Source: a virus. From it: 24,803 bases of DNA. The stretch is from IMG/VR virus record IMGVR_UViG_3300037070_004261, positions 1 through 24,803 of that record. The stretch is one strand, 5' to 3'. A program made the position numbers and the translations under genes. Position 1 is the stretch's first letter; each line of letters begins with the position of its first letter. Below the pieces are notes generated by a model. That model was given only the letters and a program-made list of their open reading frames with translations. It was not told the DNA's origin and ran no database searches. Below are positions 2,735-11,309 of this stretch, piece after piece.

Positions 2735-3322
2735 GTGGCGTCATTCAGTTTCATCGTGCCGACGCATCGCGAGGACCGGCCGCTTGCACGTTGCCTGTCC
2801 AGCATCCGGGATCAGCTCGACCCGTCCGACGAGGTGATCGTCGTTGGCGATACGCACGATGGTCCGTTACCTGGCGTCGAGGCGCGGGTGCGTGACTACG
2901 GGCCGCAGTTTCGCTACTTGAGTCTCGACGCCGGGCATCATTGTTTCGGTCATCACCAGCTTGACTACGGCATCAGTCAGGCACAAGGCGAGTACATCCA
3001 CTGCAACGACGACGATGACGTATGGACACCGGACGCCGTAGCGCACATGCGCAAGGGTGTGAACCTGTATCCCCAGTTTGCGCTCCTGTTCCGGTTCCAC
3101 TCGTATTTTGGCATCGACTTCTGGGACTTCGCGGGCAACATGGAACGTAACCATATCGGTGGTCACTGCCTGGTGACGCCGAATGTACCGGGCAAAGTGG
3201 CAAGCTGGACGTGCGACTACACCGGCGATTTCGAGTACGTGGCGAACACGGTTGCAGCGTTTGGCGGCCCGCAGAAGGCGATCTGGGTCAACGAATTCGT
3301 AGCGCGTGCTCGGCCGACGTGA
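2735..3322 (+). CDS. Glycosyltransferase-like protein (GT-A, family 2 type)
   Basis: 195 residues. The N-terminus FSFIVPTHREDRPLARCLSS is the nucleotide-sugar-binding start of family 2 glycosyltransferases. VIVVGDTHDG (35-44) gives the second beta strand, and NDDDDVW (91-97) supplies the DxD-type metal/nucleotide site. A C-terminal WTCDYTGDFEY motif may bind the acceptor. It would transfer a sugar from a nucleotide donor to an unknown acceptor. GTG 2735 is the only start that keeps the N-terminal strand, though no ribosome site is clear. It is a diverged tandem paralog of the next gene (shared DTH, DAGxHCxGHxQ, DDxVxxPxA, ERNxxGGHC-like). Its stop overlaps the next start by four bases. Confidence 0.78.
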   Translation: MASFSFIVPTHREDRPLARCLSSIRDQLDPSDEVIVVGDTHDGPLPGVEARVRDYGPQFRYLSLDAGHHCFGHHQLDYGISQAQGEYIHCNDDDDVWTPDAVAHMRKGVNLYPQFALLFRFHSYFGIDFWDFAGNMERNHIGGHCLVTPNVPGKVASWTCDYTGDFEYVANTVAAFGGPQKAIWVNEFVARARPT

Positions 3323-3930
3323 CCTGGCTCTCGATCGTCGTGCCGACCATCGGTCGGCCCACACTGGCGCGTATGGTCGCCTCAGTCCCAGATCCGACGG
3401 TCGAGATCGTGGTCGTAGCCGATACGCACCAGAATGATGTACGCGCCGAACTCAAGGCGGCGCGCAGACTGGTCAACGACCGCGTCGTATGGCTCAACCA
3501 TGACGCCGGCTATCACTGCTGGGGGCATCCACAACGTCAGAAGGGCATGAGCGAGGCAACCGGTCGCTGGCTGATGTTCTCGCAGGATGACAACGTGCTG
3601 GTGCCGGGCGCGCTAGACGTTATCCGCAGAGTGATCGCGCGTCAGGATGAGCCGCGGCCGTTGCTGTTCCAGGTTGATAACTGGTCGGCGGGCGTGGTGT
3701 GGAAAAAACCGGTCCTGGTCGAGCGGAACGTTGATGCCGATTGCATTGTGGTTCCGGCCGACCCGATGAAGTTAGGAACGTGGGGCGAGCGGTTCCAGGG
3801 AGACTATGACTTCATTGTTGACACGTGTCGAAAGTGGCCGTTCGTGAGTTTCTGTCGGGTGATCATCTCGCTTAGTCCAGAGCGTGACCCCGAGACGCGA
3901 CGCGCGATGCAGGCAGCATGGACACTCTGA
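3319..3930 (+). CDS. Glycosyltransferase-like protein, paralog of the preceding gene
   Basis: 203 residues starting at GTG 3319, which forms a GTGA overlap with the previous stop. An ATG at 3211 in the same frame would bury 36 extra residues inside the neighbour and shift the conserved IVVPTIGRPTLARM start away from the N-terminus, so it is rejected. EIVVVADTHQND (29-40) and SQDDN (88-92) are the second strand and DxD-like site. The segment HDAGYHCWGH (61-70) matches the upstream paralog closely, pointing to an old tandem duplication followed by change of donor or acceptor. A C-terminal GDYDF motif replaces the paralog's GDFEY. The substrate is unknown. Confidence 0.75.
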   Translation: MTWLSIVVPTIGRPTLARMVASVPDPTVEIVVVADTHQNDVRAELKAARRLVNDRVVWLNHDAGYHCWGHPQRQKGMSEATGRWLMFSQDDNVLVPGALDVIRRVIARQDEPRPLLFQVDNWSAGVVWKKPVLVERNVDADCIVVPADPMKLGTWGERFQGDYDFIVDTCRKWPFVSFCRVIISLSPERDPETRRAMQAAWTL

Positions 3931-4757
3931 GCGTACCGACGCCGACCAGCAATTACACGAGCTACCGTCAATGTCTGGCGGAAGCCGCTACGCAGCAGCC
4001 CGAGGATTGGACGTTCAAGACGGACATTCGATTCCAGCGGGTACTCGAGCACGTTGACCACTACCAGGGGTTTCGGTTTCTCGATCACGTTCAGCGTGAG
4101 TATGCCGCGTACTGGCCGCAGGTTCGCGAGTTGCTGCCGGGTCTCGTCGCGGACAACGATCGGTACGGCAAGCCATTCGGCGACATGTTCCACGAGGTCG
4201 GGCTGACGTGCTCGCCGTCGAACTTCCGCTACTTGAGTCAGGCATTACGCCTGCTGACGCACGCCGCAGAAGTTACCGATGGACGCATCCACATCATCGA
4301 GCTTGGCGGCGGCTACGGCGGGCTGGCGCTGTACGTGCATCGGCTGGCTCACCTGTTCCCGAGCGTAGAGATCGATGCTTATTCGATCGTGGACTTGCCA
4401 GAAGCCGGTGTGGTCCAGGCAAAGACAGCGGGCGCTCTGGGAGTGCCGATTAACGTGGTCAATGGGCTGAGCGAGATCGCCCTGGGTATTTGTCTGGATC
4501 TGAGTGACGCGTCGCGGTTCTTCTTCAGTGCCTACGCCTTCAGTGAGTTCGATGAGGACACGCGCAACTACTACGCCGAGCATGTCGCGAAGCATTGCGA
4601 GCATGGCGTGGTGATCTGGAATTTTGTCAATGGGGTGACAGGTGTTGCCGAGAAAGACCTCGGCGGGCCTGTCTATCAGTTCATCGATAAACCGCTACAT
4701 GCCGTGCTCGATCAGCCGGCTATGTACCCGGAGCCTATCCAGCTCGTGAGATTCTGA
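3918..4757 (+). CDS. Putative sugar O-methyltransferase
   Basis: 279 residues. The SAM-binding motif I is IIELGGGYGGLA (126-137), followed by DAYSIVDLPEA, where the Asp would bind the ribose of SAM. The N-terminal half (FRFLDHVQREY, CSPSNFRYLSQALRL) and the C-terminal SAYAFSEFDED match the pattern of proteins annotated as putative sugar O-methyltransferases in polysaccharide clusters. It probably methylates a hydroxyl of a sugar residue. The ATG overlaps the previous stop by 13 bases, and its TGA overlaps the next ATG by one base, so it is tightly coupled to both. The glycosyltransferase and PLP-enzyme neighbours support a sugar substrate rather than DNA. Confidence 0.72.
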   Translation: MDTLSVPTPTSNYTSYRQCLAEAATQQPEDWTFKTDIRFQRVLEHVDHYQGFRFLDHVQREYAAYWPQVRELLPGLVADNDRYGKPFGDMFHEVGLTCSPSNFRYLSQALRLLTHAAEVTDGRIHIIELGGGYGGLALYVHRLAHLFPSVEIDAYSIVDLPEAGVVQAKTAGALGVPINVVNGLSEIALGICLDLSDASRFFFSAYAFSEFDEDTRNYYAEHVAKHCEHGVVIWNFVNGVTGVAEKDLGGPVYQFIDKPLHAVLDQPAMYPEPIQLVRF

Positions 4758-5887
4758 TGGTGCTTGCCCCGGCGAAACGCTACCCGCTCGCCCACGTGAC
4801 GTACGGCGACGAGGAAATGGCCGCGGTCATGATGACGCTACGCGCCGGTCAGACCACGTGCGGGCCCCAGGTTCGGCAATTTGAACAATCTTTTGCATCT
4901 TATGTCGGCCGCGAGCACGCCGTGATGGTCAATTCCGGCTCGAGCGCTGACCTGTTGATTGCGTTCGGCCTCGGGCCAGCGCAGCCAGGTGACGAGGTGC
5001 TGGTTCCCGCGGTCACCTGGCCGACGCAGGTCTGGTCGTGCACGATGGCGGGCTACACGGTGCGGCTTGTCGATGTGGACCCTGCCACGTTGCAGATGGA
5101 CGTGGCCGATCTGAAACGGAAGGTCAACATTCATGCGCGCTGTGTGTTTCTTACTCACGTACTCGGTAACGTGGGTAATCTGGATGATCTCGACGACGTC
5201 GATATTCCGATCCTTGAGGATTGCTGCGAGGCGATGGGCGCTCGCTGGCGGGGCAAGCACGTCGGGACATTAGGTAGTGCCGCGGCCTTCTCGTTTTTCT
5301 TCAGCCACCTCCTGAACACGATGGAGGGGGGGATGGTGGTCACCGACGAGGTGCTCGATGCGCGTGACTACCGACTGTGGCGCTCACACGGTTGGGAGCC
5401 GAAGGCAGATTTTCCGTTCTGGTTCCCGACATGGGGCCTGAACGTACGGCCGACCGAGATCCAGGGCGCATTCGGCAACGTCCAGATGACTCGGCTCGAA
5501 AGTTTTCGTCAGGCTCGAGTGCGGAATTACGAGCGGCTCACGGCCGCCATCCCGTGGGGTTGGCTGCACGGCATCACCGTACTGCCCGAGTGCGAGCCGG
5601 CATGGCATGGCTTCCCGATGATGGTCGCGCCGGACGCGCCGTTCTGGAAAGCGGACCTGTGCCGCTTCCTGGACGCGCACGGTGTGGAAACACGGCCGAT
5701 TGTGGCGGGCAACTTCGCGGAGCAGCCGGTCGCTCAAGGTCACCCACAGATCATTGCCGAGCATCTGCCGGGCGCGGACCGTATCCATCGGGACGGGTTC
5801 TACATCGGGATCTCATCGTTCGACGACGAGGACGGCGCGGCCTACGTTGGCGAGGTCGTGAGCGAGTTCATGAGGCAGTGGGGCTGA
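4757..5887 (+). CDS. DegT/DnrJ/EryC1/StrS-family PLP enzyme, ColD-like sugar 3-dehydratase
   Basis: 376 residues, normal length for this fold-type I family. MVNSGSSAD (57-65) is the phosphate-binding loop, and PILEDCCEAMGA (151-162) holds Asp155, which contacts the pyridine nitrogen. The segment AFSFFFSHLLNTMEGGMVVT (177-196) aligns without gaps to the FSF...K...EGG region of aminotransferases such as ArnB, but His184 replaces the Schiff-base Lys. That replacement is known from GDP-4-keto-6-deoxymannose 3-dehydratase (ColD), which uses PMP to remove the C3 hydroxyl. It is therefore more likely a 3-deoxygenating enzyme than an aminotransferase. It lacks an obvious extra Cys cluster like that of the iron-sulfur E1-type dehydratases. 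A TGATG overlap couples it to the methyltransferase. The substrate is inferred. Confidence 0.8.
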   Translation: MVLAPAKRYPLAHVTYGDEEMAAVMMTLRAGQTTCGPQVRQFEQSFASYVGREHAVMVNSGSSADLLIAFGLGPAQPGDEVLVPAVTWPTQVWSCTMAGYTVRLVDVDPATLQMDVADLKRKVNIHARCVFLTHVLGNVGNLDDLDDVDIPILEDCCEAMGARWRGKHVGTLGSAAAFSFFFSHLLNTMEGGMVVTDEVLDARDYRLWRSHGWEPKADFPFWFPTWGLNVRPTEIQGAFGNVQMTRLESFRQARVRNYERLTAAIPWGWLHGITVLPECEPAWHGFPMMVAPDAPFWKADLCRFLDAHGVETRPIVAGNFAEQPVAQGHPQIIAEHLPGADRIHRDGFYIGISSFDDEDGAAYVGEVVSEFMRQWG

Positions 5888-5891
5888 GCGG

Positions 5892-6530
5892 TTGCTGATC
5901 GCCATGCGCGAGCTGGTGACTCGCTACGGCGTGAAACCGAAAGCGGTCTTGCACGTTGGCGCTCATCTGGGTGAAGAGGCTGAGGATTATCAGGAAGCCT
6001 GCGCCGAGCGCGTACTGTGGATCGAAGCGAATCGGGCATTAGTGCCGACGCTCCAAGCGCACGTGGCGGGGTTCCCAGGTCAGCGCGCCCTACAGGCCAC
6101 GATAAGCGACGTCAATGATGAGCCCGTGACGCTGCGGCTGACGACCTTCTCGATGGCATCATCGATTCTGCCGCTCAAGCGGCACCTCGATTTCTATCCG
6201 TCGATGCCTGAGATTGGCGGGCAAGCAGACATGACCACCACGGTTGACATGCTGCTCGAGCAGTACGGCGAGTCGCCAACGTTCGATATGGCCAACCTCG
6301 ACGTGGAGGGCGCCGAGTTGCACGTGCTGCGCGGCATGGCGTCGGTGATGCCGAGTTTGCGCTGGATCTATACCGAGGTCAACCACGAGGAGATGTACGA
6401 GGGCTGCGTGCTGGTGTCGCAGATGGACGACTACCTTGGTGGGTTCGGGTTCAAGCGGGTGGCCATTCAGGATGCGTATATCGGTGAGCAGATGATGGGG
6501 TTCGCGGACGCGCTCTATGCCCGAGCCTAG
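5892..6530 (+). CDS. FkbM-family methyltransferase
   Basis: 212 residues. LHVGAHLGEEAEDY (20-33) is the FkbM-type motif I, followed by WIEANRALVP. NLDVEGAELHVLRGM (135-149) is the hallmark LDVEGxE...LxG segment of the Methyltransf_21/FkbM family. Members usually methylate hydroxyls of sugars or small metabolites, which fits the neighbours. TTG 5892 starts four bases after the preceding stop and keeps the N-terminal helix usual before motif I; ATG 5904 is the alternative and would cost four residues. No ribosome site is clear for either. It ends in a 14-base overlap with the next gene. Confidence 0.85.
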   Translation: MLIAMRELVTRYGVKPKAVLHVGAHLGEEAEDYQEACAERVLWIEANRALVPTLQAHVAGFPGQRALQATISDVNDEPVTLRLTTFSMASSILPLKRHLDFYPSMPEIGGQADMTTTVDMLLEQYGESPTFDMANLDVEGAELHVLRGMASVMPSLRWIYTEVNHEEMYEGCVLVSQMDDYLGGFGFKRVAIQDAYIGEQMMGFADALYARA

Positions 6531-7302
6531 CTTGCAAGTGATCTGTTTCAGCAAGGATCGGCCGCTCCAACTTCACGGCTACCTGACCTCGTTCTATCGG
6601 CACTGCGAACAGAACGCGAGCGTGAAAGTCCTGGTGCAGTCTCAGCCGCAATGGTTCGCCGACGCGTACCGTCAGGTCGAGGCCGAGTTTCCTCAGGTCG
6701 AGTGGTGCCACGAGACGAACTTTCGGGCTGACCTCGAAGCGCTGATCGGTGATGCCGAGTACACCATGTTCGGCTGCGACGACGTGGTGTTCACGCGCTC
6801 GTTCGAGACGCGCGTCGATCCAGACGTGATTGGGCTGTCGCTAAGACTGGGGAACCACATCACGCGCGACATGTTCGGCAACCCGCTATCGCAGCCGGCC
6901 CAATTCCGCCAGGGCAATCAGTGGCCAGTGTCTGAGGGGGTCGGTGATTGGGGCTACCCGTGGGAAGTGCTCGGGACGATCTACGAAACCGACTTCGTCA
7001 AACGCATGGCGGCGCGTGTGCAGGCCAACTCACCCAGTCAGCTCGAAGAACGCGGCTCACGCTGCTGGTCAGAGGAAACAGACAAGCGCATGCTGGCGTC
7101 GTGGGCGTTGTCACGGCTCGTGGTGCCTACGGTGAACCTGGTGCAGCAAGAATTCCCGAATGGCATCTGTGGCAACGTGCCGCTTGACGTCGGCTACCTG
7201 CTCGACTGCTGGAACCACGGCATGCGCTTGGACGTGGACCGCTACGCGAATATGGCGCCTGAGTCGTGGCGCATCCCAGACTTCTTCCTGAGGCGAGCAT
7301 GA
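6517..7302 (+). CDS. Glycosyltransferase-like protein
   Basis: 261 residues beginning LQVICFSKDRPLQLHGYL, a GT-A style first strand and helix. FGCDDVVFTR (85-94) is a DxD-like acidic site. The centre contains GDWGYPWEVLGTIYETD and the C-terminal half NGICGNVPLDVGYLLDCW. This arrangement resembles uncharacterised phage and bacterial glycosyltransferase-like proteins found next to FkbM genes. No membrane segment is visible, so it should be cytoplasmic. ATG 6517 overlaps the FkbM stop by 14 bases, and its own stop forms an ATGA overlap with the DNA methyltransferase. The sugar donor and the acceptor are unknown; assignment beyond GT-A-like is weak. Confidence 0.6.
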   Translation: MPEPSLQVICFSKDRPLQLHGYLTSFYRHCEQNASVKVLVQSQPQWFADAYRQVEAEFPQVEWCHETNFRADLEALIGDAEYTMFGCDDVVFTRSFETRVDPDVIGLSLRLGNHITRDMFGNPLSQPAQFRQGNQWPVSEGVGDWGYPWEVLGTIYETDFVKRMAARVQANSPSQLEERGSRCWSEETDKRMLASWALSRLVVPTVNLVQQEFPNGICGNVPLDVGYLLDCWNHGMRLDVDRYANMAPESWRIPDFFLRRA

Positions 7303-7994
7303 CGCCGTATTACGAACAGGACGGCATCACTATCTACCACGGTGACTGCCGGGATGTACTGCCGCAACTTGGTTCCTTTGACCTTGTCGTTGCTGATCCA
7401 CCTTATTCGTTCGGTATGGCCTCGACATTCCAAGAATCCAAGGCTGGCAGTTGGGCCGATCTGATGAACGCGGCCACGTGGTACGCATCGTGGCTCAATG
7501 AATGCCGCAGGATTACGGCAAATCGGGCTGGAGCGGCTTGGGTGTTCAACTCATGGCGAAGTTTTCCGATTCTTGCCAGAGCCGCACATGAGAGCGGGTG
7601 GCCCATCGAGTCGCTATTGGTTTGGGATAAGCAGTGGATTGGCCCCGGTGGATTACGTGGCTTGCGTCCGTCCTACGAACTGGTTGCGTTGTTTGCTCAT
7701 CCTGAGTTCTCACTTGAAGATCGAGGATTGCCCGATATCTGGGCATCGAAATGGTCAGCGCTGAAACCACACGGCCATCCTGCTGAGAAGCCCCAAGCGC
7801 TTGTAGCGCGGCTGATTCGAGAGAGCAACGCTCACAATGTCCTCGACCCGTTCTGTGGTTCAGGCACGACATTGGCAGCGGCTAAGGGACTCGGCTACAC
7901 GGCTGTGGGTATCGAGGCTGAAGAACGCTACTGCGAGATTGCAGCACGTCGTCTTTCACAGGGCGTGCTCTTTGGCGAAGAGGCCGTGGCATGA
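7299..7994 (+). CDS. DNA methyltransferase, beta-type (N6-adenine or N4-cytosine)
   Basis: 231 residues. The catalytic motif DPPYSFG (33-39) precedes the SAM-binding motif DPFCGSGTTLAAA (183-195), the order of beta-class amino-methyltransferases; HPAEKPQALVARLI (160-173) is the usual segment ahead of motif I. DPPY allows adenine N6 or cytosine N4 methylation. The protein is short, with little room for a separate target-recognition domain, so the site may be short. ATG 7299 forms an ATGA overlap with the previous gene; an in-frame ATG at 7266 would overlap further and is less likely. No cognate restriction gene is nearby, so it looks like an orphan phage enzyme, for instance for protection from host restriction. 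It is the only DNA-directed gene in the sugar cassette. Confidence 0.88.
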   Translation: MTPYYEQDGITIYHGDCRDVLPQLGSFDLVVADPPYSFGMASTFQESKAGSWADLMNAATWYASWLNECRRITANRAGAAWVFNSWRSFPILARAAHESGWPIESLLVWDKQWIGPGGLRGLRPSYELVALFAHPEFSLEDRGLPDIWASKWSALKPHGHPAEKPQALVARLIRESNAHNVLDPFCGSGTTLAAAKGLGYTAVGIEAEERYCEIAARRLSQGVLFGEEAVA

Positions 7995-8716
7995 CCTGTT
8001 GGGCAATGACCATTGCTTACAACGAGGCGACGCTGATCAAGTACTGGGTTCGCGCATATCGCGCGTTCTGCGACAAGGTCATCGTCTACTGCGACCTGGG
8101 TTCAGACGACGGCACGGCTGCGCTGGCGCGTCGTGCGGGGGCTGAGGTGCGTCCTTACGGACCGAGCGGCCTGGACGACGTTGAGTTTATTGCGTTCGCA
8201 CAGGAGCACTACAGAGAGGCGCGTGGGCATGCGGATTGGGTCATCTGGACCGACGCCGATGAGATCCTGTACCACCCGAGCCTGTCTGAGCGATTGGCCG
8301 AGCTGCGTCAGTCTGGCGTGAACTATCCGACCATCACGGGATACAGCATGATGGCCGACCATCCACCGACCGGCCCAGGCCAGATTTACGACCAGTTGCA
8401 GTGCGGGTTTCAGTCTGACGCCTACTCGAAGGTCTGCATCTTCGATCCAGCGCTCGATGTGGCGTGGTCTACGGGTAAACACACGGCTGAGGTTTCAGGC
8501 GCTGTAGCCGACGACGGTTCCGATCCGCTCAAACTGCTGCATTATCGCTGGCTGGGGGAGGCGTATTTCCTCGAACGGAACCGGCGTAACTACGCCCGGC
8601 TCAACGCGATGAACAAGGCCATGCAGCACGGACGTGAGATCTACCCTGGAGCACAAGGCCCGTACAGCCCAACCTGGTATGCCGATCGCCGCGGTATCGC
8701 TGAGGTGTGTGTATGA
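7991..8716 (+). CDS. Glycosyltransferase family 2-like protein
   Basis: 241 residues. CWAMTIAYNEATLIKYWVRA (3-22) is the N-terminal strand and helix of the Glyco_tranf_2_4 type, YCDLGSDDGT (33-42) is the nucleotide-binding turn, and WTDADEIL (86-93) contains the DxD metal site. The C-terminal half has His-rich TGKHTAEV and LKLLHYRWLGE, common in this group. It probably transfers a sugar to a surface or protein acceptor. ATG 7991 forms an ATGA overlap with the methyltransferase gene, and the stop overlaps the next gene likewise. Of the four glycosyltransferase-like proteins here this has the clearest family pattern. Confidence 0.82.
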   Translation: MTCWAMTIAYNEATLIKYWVRAYRAFCDKVIVYCDLGSDDGTAALARRAGAEVRPYGPSGLDDVEFIAFAQEHYREARGHADWVIWTDADEILYHPSLSERLAELRQSGVNYPTITGYSMMADHPPTGPGQIYDQLQCGFQSDAYSKVCIFDPALDVAWSTGKHTAEVSGAVADDGSDPLKLLHYRWLGEAYFLERNRRNYARLNAMNKAMQHGREIYPGAQGPYSPTWYADRRGIAEVCV

Positions 8717-9114
8717 CTACGACCATGACGTCGCTCGTGCAGTTGTATGCCGAGGATCAGGAACGCGAGGTGGTGAGCCTGCTGGTCAAGTGCGGCTGGC
8801 AGCGCAGTGCTATTCCGTCTGTTGAGGTGCTGGCTGAGGCGGCCATGACCGGCTGTGCGTATGTCGCGCTCAGGGATGGTCGCGTGGTCGGGTTCATTCG
8901 GGTGATCAGCGATGGCGAGGTGGTGTCCTACGTGACGGAGTTGGCGGTGAACGAACGTGTACGGCACCAGGGGATTGGCCGAGCGCTGATCGACGCCGTG
9001 GCTGCTGAGTTTCCTAAAGCGCGTATCGATCTGCTGTCTACGCAACTGGCGCAGTCGTTCTACGAAGAGGTTGGGTTCACACAGAAGGCTGGGTATCGCC
9101 GATGGCCGACATGA
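8713..9114 (+). CDS. GNAT-family N-acetyltransferase
   Basis: 133 residues, typical of a single GNAT domain. VTELAVNERVRHQGIGRALI (74-93) is motif A, with R84-H-Q-G-I-G89 forming the acetyl-CoA pyrophosphate loop. SFYEEVGFTQKAGY (115-128) is the usual motif B region. ATG 8713 is favoured by its ATGA overlap with the previous stop; a GTG at 8707 is also in frame. Placed immediately before a sugar aminotransferase, it could acylate the new amino group of an aminosugar, though GNAT proteins also acetylate proteins and antibiotics. The substrate is inference from context only. Confidence 0.85.
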   Translation: MTTTMTSLVQLYAEDQEREVVSLLVKCGWQRSAIPSVEVLAEAAMTGCAYVALRDGRVVGFIRVISDGEVVSYVTELAVNERVRHQGIGRALIDAVAAEFPKARIDLLSTQLAQSFYEEVGFTQKAGYRRWPT

Positions 9115-10214
9115 TCCCGTTGTTCAAAGTGTTTATGGCTCCCGATGCCAAGGATCGAGTCGGGGCAACTCTCGATTCTGGGTACGTCGGCGAGGGGTCG
9201 CGCGTGCAGGAGTTCGAGGAAGCCTTCGGGCAACTAGTGGGATTCCCTCTTCCCTCCCCGCTAGCGCTCAACTCCTGTACGTCGGCGCTCGACCTGGCCT
9301 GTCACCTGATCGGTGTCGGGCTTGGCGACGAAGTGATCACCACGCCCATGACGTGTACGGCCACGAACGGCGTGCTCGTGAACCGCGGCGCCAAGATCGT
9401 CTGGGCTGATATTGATCCGGTTACGGGCCTGATCGACCCGTTAGATGTGAAGCGGAAACTGACGCACCGTACGAAAGCGATCATGGCAGTTGACTGGGCC
9501 GGTCGTTCGTGCGACTACTGGGCGCTACGTACGGCTAGCCATGAGTTGCGTCGTGTGCCGATCATTCAGGATGCGGCCCACAACCTGTTCGTCGATCCTG
9601 ACAACCGAGGCGACTACGTGGCCTGGTCGTTCGGGCCGATCAAGCACCTGACGTGCGGCGGCTACGGCGGCGCGCTGATGGTGCCCGAGAGACAGCACGA
9701 GCGCGGCCGGCTGCTGCGCTGGCATGGCTTGGACCGTACCAGCAAGGCCGACTTCCGCTGTGAGCAGAACATCACGGAGGTGGGTTACCGCTACCACATG
9801 ACCGACGACATGGCGTCCGTCGGGCTGGCCAACATTCCCCACGTTGCAGACCTCGTGGCCAAGCATCGCGAGAACGCAGCGTGGTACTCGCAGCGGTTCC
9901 AGGGCGTGCCGGGCATCACATCGCCTCCTGATGACCCGGCGTCGTCCTGGTGGCTCTACTGCCTCCTGGCTGATGACCGAGCGTCGTTGATCGAGCATCT
10001 GGCCAGCCGAGGCGTCGCGGCCAGCCCCGTCCATCGCAGGAACGATACCCACCCAGCATTCTTCTACCCGAACGGGCCACTGCCCGGCGTCGACCACTTC
10101 GCTGAGCAGGAATGCGCCATTCCAGTCGGGTGGTGGTGCTCACAAGAAGATCTCCAAGGCGTGGCTGACGCCGTGATCGAGTGGGCGTATTCACGCCAAT
10201 TGGTGGCCGCATGA
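9111..10214 (+). CDS. DegT/DnrJ/EryC1/StrS-family sugar aminotransferase
   Basis: 367 residues. ALNSCTSALDLA (52-63) is the phosphate-binding loop, DEVITTPMTCTATNG (73-87) the family core, VPIIQDAAHNLF (149-160) contains PLP-contacting Asp154, and AWSFGPIKHLTCGGYGG (171-187) carries Lys178 at the Schiff-base position. Unlike the His-bearing relative at 4757 it keeps the Lys and should be a genuine aminotransferase acting on a keto-sugar nucleotide. ATG 9111 gives the ATGA overlap common in this operon; ATG 9102 would add three residues. It is the last enzyme of the cassette and overlaps a micro-gene. With the GNAT gene before it, an N-acylated amino sugar is a reasonable product. Confidence 0.88.
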   Translation: MIPLFKVFMAPDAKDRVGATLDSGYVGEGSRVQEFEEAFGQLVGFPLPSPLALNSCTSALDLACHLIGVGLGDEVITTPMTCTATNGVLVNRGAKIVWADIDPVTGLIDPLDVKRKLTHRTKAIMAVDWAGRSCDYWALRTASHELRRVPIIQDAAHNLFVDPDNRGDYVAWSFGPIKHLTCGGYGGALMVPERQHERGRLLRWHGLDRTSKADFRCEQNITEVGYRYHMTDDMASVGLANIPHVADLVAKHRENAAWYSQRFQGVPGITSPPDDPASSWWLYCLLADDRASLIEHLASRGVAASPVHRRNDTHPAFFYPNGPLPGVDHFAEQECAIPVGWWCSQEDLQGVADAVIEWAYSRQLVAA

Positions 10215-10303
10215 CGCTCGTCCGATTCCCGACGAAACCTGACCGAGCTAAGCCGCCCATGAAGCCCAAGCCCAAGCCGAAGCCACCGAAGCGGCCCTAC
10301 TGA
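10211..10303 (+). CDS. 30-residue Lys/Pro-rich micro-protein
   Basis: This short frame fills the gap between aminotransferase and connector exactly: its ATG forms an ATGA overlap with the preceding stop, and its TGA overlaps the next ATG by one base. The product begins MTLVRFPTKPDRAKPP and continues as an alternating Lys-Pro tract ending KRPY, so it is very basic. No domain is recognisable. It could be a translational-coupling leader for the connector gene, or a small nucleic-acid- or capsid-binding peptide. The perfect overlaps at both ends are the reason to call it. Confidence 0.6.
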   Translation: MTLVRFPTKPDRAKPPMKPKPKPKPPKRPY

Positions 10304-10941
10304 TGAGCGCCAACCTCTACGCGACTGTTTCCCAATTGCGTGATCGGTTGGGCATCACTGACGTATCCCAGGACTTGATGCTCGACCAGGCGCTCCAGTC
10401 GGCTTCGCGCTGGATCGACAAGACACTGGGTCGGCGATTCTTCACGACGACCGCCGATGAGATCCGCTACTTTACGGCCTGCGATGCGTACTGGTATCTC
10501 GAAACGGGCGACCTGCTCAGTGTCACCACGCTCGCTACAGACGCGAATGGTGACGGGGTCTATGAGACAACGTGGACGGTCGCCACTGACTACTGGCTCG
10601 GGCCGCGTAATGCGCAGCTCGACAGCGAACCGTATACCTGTATCAACCGAACCTCGTACTCAGGCCGCTTCAGTTTCCCGGCCTATCCCGACGCGGTACA
10701 GGTTACCGGCAAGTTTGGCTACTGCACGCTGGCCAACGTCCCGCCGCAGATTCGTGAGCTGACCTTGTCTCTCGCTGAGACGGGCGCCGGCTCAGTCGGT
10801 GGCGGCGACCTCGCTATTCCTGGCGTCCAGAGTTACAAGATCGGCAACGAACTGTCCGTGACGATGGGTGGCAGTAATCGTGTGAACGATTCGACGAGGT
10901 CGGTGCTCGCACAATTCAGCCGCGGCGGATTCGTGACCTGA
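10303..10941 (+). CDS. Head-tail connector protein
   Basis: 212 residues. The N-terminal TVSQLRDRLGITDVSQDLML and the helical LQSASRWIDKTLGRRF (about residues 30-45) match gp6-like/Phage_connect adaptor proteins that form the ring under the portal. The middle holds a beta-rich insertion (WTVATDYWLGPRNA), and a helix near PPQIRELTLSLAE follows. It probably binds the portal and seats the head-closure protein encoded next. ATG 10303 overlaps the micro-gene stop by one base and the stop overlaps the next ATG by one base. The position between capsid and head-closure genes supports the call. Confidence 0.82.
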   Translation: MSANLYATVSQLRDRLGITDVSQDLMLDQALQSASRWIDKTLGRRFFTTTADEIRYFTACDAYWYLETGDLLSVTTLATDANGDGVYETTWTVATDYWLGPRNAQLDSEPYTCINRTSYSGRFSFPAYPDAVQVTGKFGYCTLANVPPQIRELTLSLAETGAGSVGGGDLAIPGVQSYKIGNELSVTMGGSNRVNDSTRSVLAQFSRGGFVT

Positions 10942-11309
10942 TGGCGATTCCTGGTCTGGCTGGCCAGGCTCGACTTCGAGCAGCTCTGGCACACACGTTC
11001 ACTGCGAGTGCGACCATCTTGCGCAAGACGCAGGTTGCGGATAGCACCGGCGGGTACACCGATACCTACGCGTCGGTTGCTACGCATATGTGCTCGTTCG
11101 CGCGGTCCCAGGTTACGCCGATCGAACGCGAGAACGCGGTGCAGGTCCGCTCCATCTCAATGTGGAACTTCGTGTTCGCAGCCGAGACAGATATCCGCAC
11201 GACGGATCGGATTTACATTTCCGCTGAGGACCGGACCTTTGAGGTCGTTTCGTCGGCAACCGGCAGCATCAAACTCGCGACCCGCGTTATCTGCCAGGAA
11301 ATCACCTAA
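10941..11309 (+). CDS. Head closure / head-tail joining protein
   Basis: 122 residues. FTASATILRKTQVADSTGGY (20-39), a mid-protein WNFVFAAETDIRTTDRIYI and DRTFEVVSS form the small beta-barrel pattern of SPP1 gp16/HK97-type head-closure proteins. It would cap the connector after DNA packaging and provide the tail-docking surface. The start overlaps the connector stop by one base. It is followed by a 91-base intergenic gap, the largest break in this run of head genes. Confidence 0.78.
   Translation: MAIPGLAGQARLRAALAHTFTASATILRKTQVADSTGGYTDTYASVATHMCSFARSQVTPIERENAVQVRSISMWNFVFAAETDIRTTDRIYISAEDRTFEVVSSATGSIKLATRVICQEIT

Follow-up and report, generated by a model that had tools for sequence, protein, structure and literature searches.

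Why would a tailed phage carry ten genes of the sugar-modification type between its major capsid gene and its head-tail adaptor gene? The question is raised by a 24.8-kb IMG/VR virus record (IMGVR_UViG_3300037070_004261; 24,803 nucleotides, hereafter called the window) from an uncultured tailed phage of soil type, which begins inside the major capsid gene and continues after it with neck, tail tube, tape measure and tail-tip genes. The ten genes form a cassette at positions 2735-10214, and the families of its enzymes, its gene order, its conservation and the purifying selection on it could be read directly from the window and its relatives. We consider it likely, with some reservation, that the cassette belongs to a virion-glycosylation system, the genes of which are interleaved with the head genes and are expressed together with their substrate. 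The sugar is probably an acylated and methylated amino-deoxy sugar derived from a heptose.

A conserved slot between capsid and adaptor genes

The major capsid gene (59-1378; phrog_10, 4e-59; frame open from 5, with ATG 59 as the likely start) has 26 viral-contig relatives and, like all window genes described here, lies on the plus strand. From its end to the start of the head-tail adaptor gene (10303-10941; phrog_442, 2.4e-22), the downstream border of the slot, there are 8,924 nt, whereas the same distance is 370 nt in Marchesin and 599 nt in Aussie, annotated phages with related capsid genes, so that the placement is as unusual as an earlier note on this DNA had proposed. As a small correction to that note, the cassette does not adjoin the capsid gene: an HNH endonuclease gene (1435-2331; phrog_1271, 2e-22) and a small conserved gene (2505-2729) intervene. 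The HNH gene, immediately past the capsid gene, is present in the relative L013 and is missing from the gene maps of L002 and L003, a pattern as expected for a homing endonuclease, and it is probably a mobile insertion. The small gene, which marks the start of the slot, is kept behind the capsid gene in L002, L003, L005, L006, L010, L013 and L019.

The distance between the two borders varies widely among relatives, from 6,719 nt (L003), 8,056 nt (L013), 3,589 nt (L006), 5,074 nt (L010) and 3,676 nt (L019) to 1,402 nt (L007), 1,909 nt (L008), 59 nt (L014) and 92 nt (L016), and in the filled gaps most of the space is taken up by sugar-type genes. L003 and L013 carry the cassette of the window without the second glycosyltransferase gene (GTb) and the DNA methyltransferase gene; L006 and L019 carry the first glycosyltransferase gene (GTa), a short-chain dehydrogenase/reductase (SDR) gene, a different GNAT gene and a DegT aminotransferase gene, to which L010 adds another glycosyltransferase; L012 has GTa, GNAT and DegT; and L007 and L008 have a GTb-type transferase and a class I methyltransferase. 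The slot is thus conserved: its end genes, GTa and DegT2, persist, and the genes between them change from one relative to another. The comparison of gene order suggested by the earlier note therefore came out in its favour, since relatives have some form of the cassette in this slot and the genes were not found scattered. Moreover, the end genes diverge along with the adaptor: pairwise distances correlated with those of the adaptor at r 0.91 for GTa and r 0.89 for DegT2 (exact Mantel p 0.011 and 0.006, respectively), and more weakly with those of the capsid protein (r 0.66 and 0.65, p about 0.05).

The ten open reading frames (ORFs) of the cassette are contiguous, are separated by gaps of -14 to +5 nt, and are translationally coupled. 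GTa (2735-3322; 195 aa) is a GT-A glycosyltransferase (GT; Glycos_transf_2, 5.8e-15), the model of which (pLDDT 92.8) has a GT-A fold with a TM score of 0.80 to the GT-A fucosyltransferase WrtF. GTb (3319-3930; Glycos_transf_2, 4.3e-6), a second GT-A enzyme, belongs to a sister family according to the alignment, and its GTG start at 3319, which gives a 4-nt overlap with GTa, is placed better than the one at 3211. The product of the next gene (3918-4757), which is conserved in L003, L013, L034 and L036, is probably a sugar O-methyltransferase, as suggested by a weak TIGR04371 match (9e-6) under the curated cut-off. It is followed by genes for a ColD-like pyridoxal phosphate (PLP) sugar 3-dehydratase (4757-5887; DegT, 3e-69; PDB 2gms, ColD, 2.5e-55) and an FkbM-family methyltransferase (5892-6530; PF05050, 1.2e-9; TIGR01444 above the cut-off). 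The product of g6517 (6517-7302) is an orphan by sequence, with no family match in Pfam, PHROGs, NCBIfam or PDB, and its predicted structure identifies it as a third GT with the GT-A fold: residues 1-200 were modelled with pLDDT values of about 66-93, most blocks exceeding 75, and matched TarP with Z 12.7 and an rmsd of 3.4 over 186 residues. The remaining genes encode an N6/N4 DNA methyltransferase (7299-7994, or from 7266; PF01555 (N6_N4), 1.5e-29), a fourth glycosyltransferase, GTd (7991-8716; PF13704 (Glyco_tranf_2_4), 1.1e-11), a GNAT N-acyltransferase (8713-9114, or from 8707; PF13508, 1e-14) and a DegT sugar aminotransferase, DegT2 (9102-10214; PF01041, 3.3e-63). All ORFs of the ten coupled genes listed in the earlier note are therefore present, and the families that it named were confirmed by profiles together with the g6517 model.

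The two DegT-family enzymes differ at the PLP lysine. In the ColD-like protein, His184 in SFFFSHLLNTMEGG stands in place of this lysine and aligns with chain position 190 of ColD, which we take to be His188 in native numbering, the known catalytic base. The DegT fold and the His-for-Lys replacement point to a PLP 3-dehydratase of the ColD/E1 type, with putative activity on a nucleoside diphosphate-4-keto-6-deoxy sugar. DegT2, in contrast, keeps the PLP lysine (Lys181), and its nearest PDB entries are the sugar aminotransferases 4xau, 4zwv and 4zas. GNAT accompanies DegT in 19 of 22 DegT loci, and no GNAT was found without DegT.

The presence of a DNA methyltransferase gene inside the cassette invites another explanation, namely that the sugar is placed on phage DNA bases as protection against restriction, and DNA-modifying GTs are indeed common in phages. 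This explanation is nevertheless the least likely of those considered here. The methyltransferase is of the N6/N4 type and, as judged by sequence comparison, is a recent and precise insertion that lies outside the sugar pathway, contrary to its earlier listing as a cassette member: a single gene is set exactly between two coupled genes, the ATGA overlap being preserved at either end, and it is lacking in L003, in L013 and in L149, a contig 89% identical in nucleotides around the insert that has kept the ATGA overlap. No thymidylate-synthase-type hydroxymethylase was detected in 13 related records, some of them fragments, with the control detected in nine genomes; a search for Tet/JBP base oxidases also gave no match, but its positive control was silent as well, so that this negative carries no weight. 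The location of the genes within the late head operon also argues against a role in DNA modification.

Sugar genes at other sites of the structural operon

The cassette described in the earlier note does not stand alone: the head operon of the relatives is interleaved with at least two, and usually three, sugar loci. Upstream of the portal gene in L002 and similar contigs (92-95% nucleotide identity to the window), L003 and L013, there is a module of genes for an epimerase/dehydratase, an SDR, a GHMP kinase, a nucleotidyltransferase, an SIS isomerase and a transaldolase (L002:2-4723, L003:515-5273). In L003 and L013, the contigs of which reach the terminase end, this module lies between the terminase and portal genes, the terminase and portal in these contigs being named by position and reading and the protease by a PHROGs match. 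A GT-B glycosyltransferase gene (phrog_7162) is found between the portal and head protease genes (L082:855-1967, L002:7799-8923), and its cluster is present in 36 loci. Taken together, the interleaved loci look like a whole, or near-complete, nucleotide-sugar pathway.

The module kinase matched HddA best (NF049969, 1e-36), with the heptokinases 3k85 and 4n3o as its nearest PDB entries, and the isomerase matched gmhA (1e-11), all eleven of its PDB matches being phosphoheptose isomerases. The best family for the nucleotidyltransferase was MurU, with HddC fourth, below the equivalog cut-off, and that for the transaldolase was a TalC-type aldolase/transaldolase. A transaldolase can yield sedoheptulose 7-phosphate, which is the substrate of GmhA, and a heptose route is therefore the likeliest. 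The kinase was found in three of 18 related records, which are the three with a long cassette, and not in those with a short cassette, several of the records being fragments. Most of the module genes also co-occur in other phage contigs (L129-L132, L134, L138 and L139), and some of them in Caulobacter phage Cr30.

The linkage to structural genes was also seen when the GT family was searched by itself, independently of the capsid query, in 2.9 million viral contigs. The search gave 71 loci of the GTa family in these viral metagenome contigs; 66 GT loci were kept, 52 of them found without the capsid query. A head, neck or tail gene was recognised within 6 kb on the same strand in 40 of these 52, and a capsid gene upstream in 29 of the 52, tallies that are counts rather than independent events, some contigs being near-duplicates. 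In a more distant lineage, a GT gene, often with a methyltransferase gene, lies between the tail terminator and major tail protein genes and adjoins a GT-B gene. L034 has a DegT, methyltransferase, g6517, GTd, GNAT and DegT set between its tail terminator and major tail protein genes, which places the gene set in two separate slots within the structural operon. In a third clade (L040-L049), the proteins c24 and c30, encoded ahead of the GT block, gave the impression of protease and capsid on reading; searches of PHROGs and PDB with them were empty, and the clade was therefore not counted as head-linked.

Genes that merely landed by chance in a permissive gap behind the capsid gene, as neutral or selfish cargo, might give rise to a part of this picture, since the middle genes are variable and both the HNH and the DNA methyltransferase insertions fall in the same stretch. 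We regard this account as quite improbable. Relative to L003, the eight cassette genes tested had ratios of nonsynonymous to synonymous substitution (dN/dS) of 0.08-0.30, and the structural genes had ratios of 0.08-0.15; the cassette is under strong purifying selection, and its ORFs are therefore not chance ORFs. The retained end genes and the absence of GNAT without DegT also argue against cargo, as does L034, which carries this module set in another slot.

Further sugar-type genes were observed on the tail side. In L111 (14867-15586), which belongs with the relative L003, a glycosyltransferase-like gene with a weak Glycos_transf_2 match lies among tail-fibre genes, and L013 also has a tail-side GT-like gene. 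In a similar region of L116 (5785-7246), which belongs with L006, a methyltransferase gene adjoins an unannotated gene for 239 aa. The tail-side genes of L111 and L116 possibly represent a second modification locus.

Proposed pathway and site of attachment

With the enzyme steps taken from family knowledge, we infer the following order, sugar and target for the virion-glycosylation system. The upstream module would first supply a nucleotide sugar, most likely a GDP-type heptose, through the transaldolase, phosphoheptose isomerase, heptokinase, nucleotidyltransferase, epimerase/dehydratase and SDR. The ColD-like enzyme would then take off a hydroxyl group and the DegT enzyme put on an amino group, after which GNAT would acylate the sugar, and the FkbM-family enzyme and the second methyltransferase would methylate it. 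Finally, the soluble GT-A enzymes would attach and extend the sugar, GTa acting first, followed by g6517, GTd and GTb, with the upstream GT-B enzyme also taking part. The acceptor would be a cytoplasmic virion protein, most likely a capsid, neck or tail-tube protein.

The same enzymes might instead alter the polysaccharide of the host, either late in infection or during lysogeny, and thereby block superinfection or aid release. Clusters with heptokinase, GmhA, epimerase and GT genes in Caulobacter phage Cr30 and in cyanophages favour such a role, as does the integrase carried by two of the long-cassette relatives. On the other side, the flippase GtrA, the initiating sugar transferase family Bac_transf and the polysaccharide flippase family Polysacc_synt were found in none of the 13 related records, some of which are fragments, with the controls detected (that for GtrA in seven genomes). 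In addition, no cassette protein has a transmembrane-like stretch (maximum KD19 1.46), the four phage-encoded GT-A enzymes, which are soluble, included. Of the two targets that the earlier note had allowed, virion or host surface, both of which we infer, the virion is favoured because neither genes for membrane or lipid-carrier functions nor a cassette protein that spans the membrane turned up. The position of the cassette inside the head operon and its divergence along with the adaptor also speak against the host surface, and a host-surface role appears unlikely on balance.

Several points weigh against glycosylation of the virion by a heptose-type sugar. The virion location rests on gene order, which is indirect evidence, and phage clusters of the lipopolysaccharide (LPS) type are usually interpreted as host-surface modifiers (PMC9602691). 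The upstream module was seen in relatives and lies outside the window, the record of which starts within the capsid gene. The heptokinase and the isomerase scored 126.7 of 600 bits and 44.6 of 209 bits, respectively, far under the NCBIfam equivalog cut-offs, so that the scores do not fix the substrates of the module enzymes. No GmhB-type phosphatase was noticed on reading the ORFs of G002 and G003, and no profile search for GmhB was made. Because of these sub-cut-off scores and the lack of a recognised GmhB-type phosphatase, the name heptose is a family-level guess. Lastly, gp108-gp110 of mycobacteriophage Che8, a phage with glycosylated proteins, scored 6-10 bits against the A1 profile, as would be expected from shared membership of the GT-A superfamily and no closer relation.

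A fuller proposal is that this phage lineage makes a heptose-type nucleotide sugar (3-deoxygenated, aminated, N-acylated and O-methylated) from central metabolites and builds it onto capsid or neck proteins, the pathway being spread over three head-operon slots for co-expression of sugar, transferase and substrate. We put this forward tentatively, and would sooner doubt it than rely on it in full; if true, the glycan chemistry would be specific to phages and would have no known counterpart among isolates.

Known systems and other features of the window

Phage virion glycosylation is a recent finding, mainly from mycobacteriophages with a few transferases. Glycosylated proteins occur in the mycobacteriophages Che8, Corndog and Myrna, and capsid and tail tube are glycosylated in mycobacteriophages by transferases of their own (Freeman et al. 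2023, via PMC12363180 and PMC12619734). Che8 gp110 and Corndog gp38 were reported to be essential for capsid glycosylation (Freeman et al. 2023, via PMC12363180, PMC12619734 and PMC11600133). In cluster O phages, an O-methyltransferase gene is followed by three GT genes (PMC11600133). The mycobacteriophages thus resemble the window in combining phage-encoded glycosyltransferases with O-methyltransferases. However, the Che8 GTs lie at the right genome end, with no nucleotide-sugar pathway alongside in the stretch read, whereas the window has its genes in the head operon together with a dehydratase, an aminotransferase and a GNAT enzyme.

In the cyanophages P-SSM2/P-SSM5 and S-SRM01, a single block combines an FkbM homologue (28-29% identity) with GT genes and with genes for GDP-mannose 4,6-dehydratase and SIS proteins, but in the stretches read the neighbours of these LPS-type blocks are not head genes but ferredoxin, hli and photosystem genes; such genes are thought to act at the host surface (PMC9602691). 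Cr30 has consecutive genes for an epimerase, a GT2 enzyme, D,D-heptose 7-phosphate kinase and phosphoheptose isomerase, but no annotated transaldolase or head genes alongside, and the stretch contains neither a dehydratase nor an aminotransferase of the DegT type. An uncultured podovirus from Manatee Spring (MW202801; L157:2759-11454) has GT, PhyH, methyltransferase, NodB-like and GT genes between its major capsid and stabilization protein genes. These are of other enzyme families, and the stretch lacks genes of the heptose or DegT kind; since a podovirus is a different kind of virus, the similar placement may be convergent. In Streptomyces phage Zuko, UDP-glucose dehydrogenase and GT genes stand immediately before the terminase gene. 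Given the capsid-side cassette of MW202801 and these genes of Zuko, such placement may be more widespread. Giant viruses such as Mimivirus make their own activated amino-deoxy sugar, viosamine, for particle glycans by means of a dehydratase, an aminotransferase, an acetyltransferase and O-methylation (PMC9614988), but these are eukaryotic viruses and use a UDP-sugar route rather than a heptose-type one. Virion glycosylation and phage LPS-type clusters were therefore already known, and what is unusual here is that the pathway is so complete and that it is interleaved with head genes. A near-complete pathway woven into the head operon suggests that making and attaching its own sugar belongs to the building of the particle. 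Since GTa had no match in 50,697 phage records and yet has the viral-metagenome loci counted above, isolate-based surveys would miss this family, and the lineage makes it possible to ask directly how widespread phage particles with a sugar coat are in uncultured communities.

As for the window itself, a near-DNA search of phage records gave no match, and its capsid protein had only distant matches among 84,980 species genomes (37% identity or less; Aureimonas, Pseudomonas and others), so that no host was assigned. Rfam gave no match on the window, and promoter and terminator scans of it stayed at chance level. In the relative L019, a group I intron (10746-10963; Rfam RF00028, 74.7 bits, E 3e-19) splits the major capsid gene, as it does in L018.

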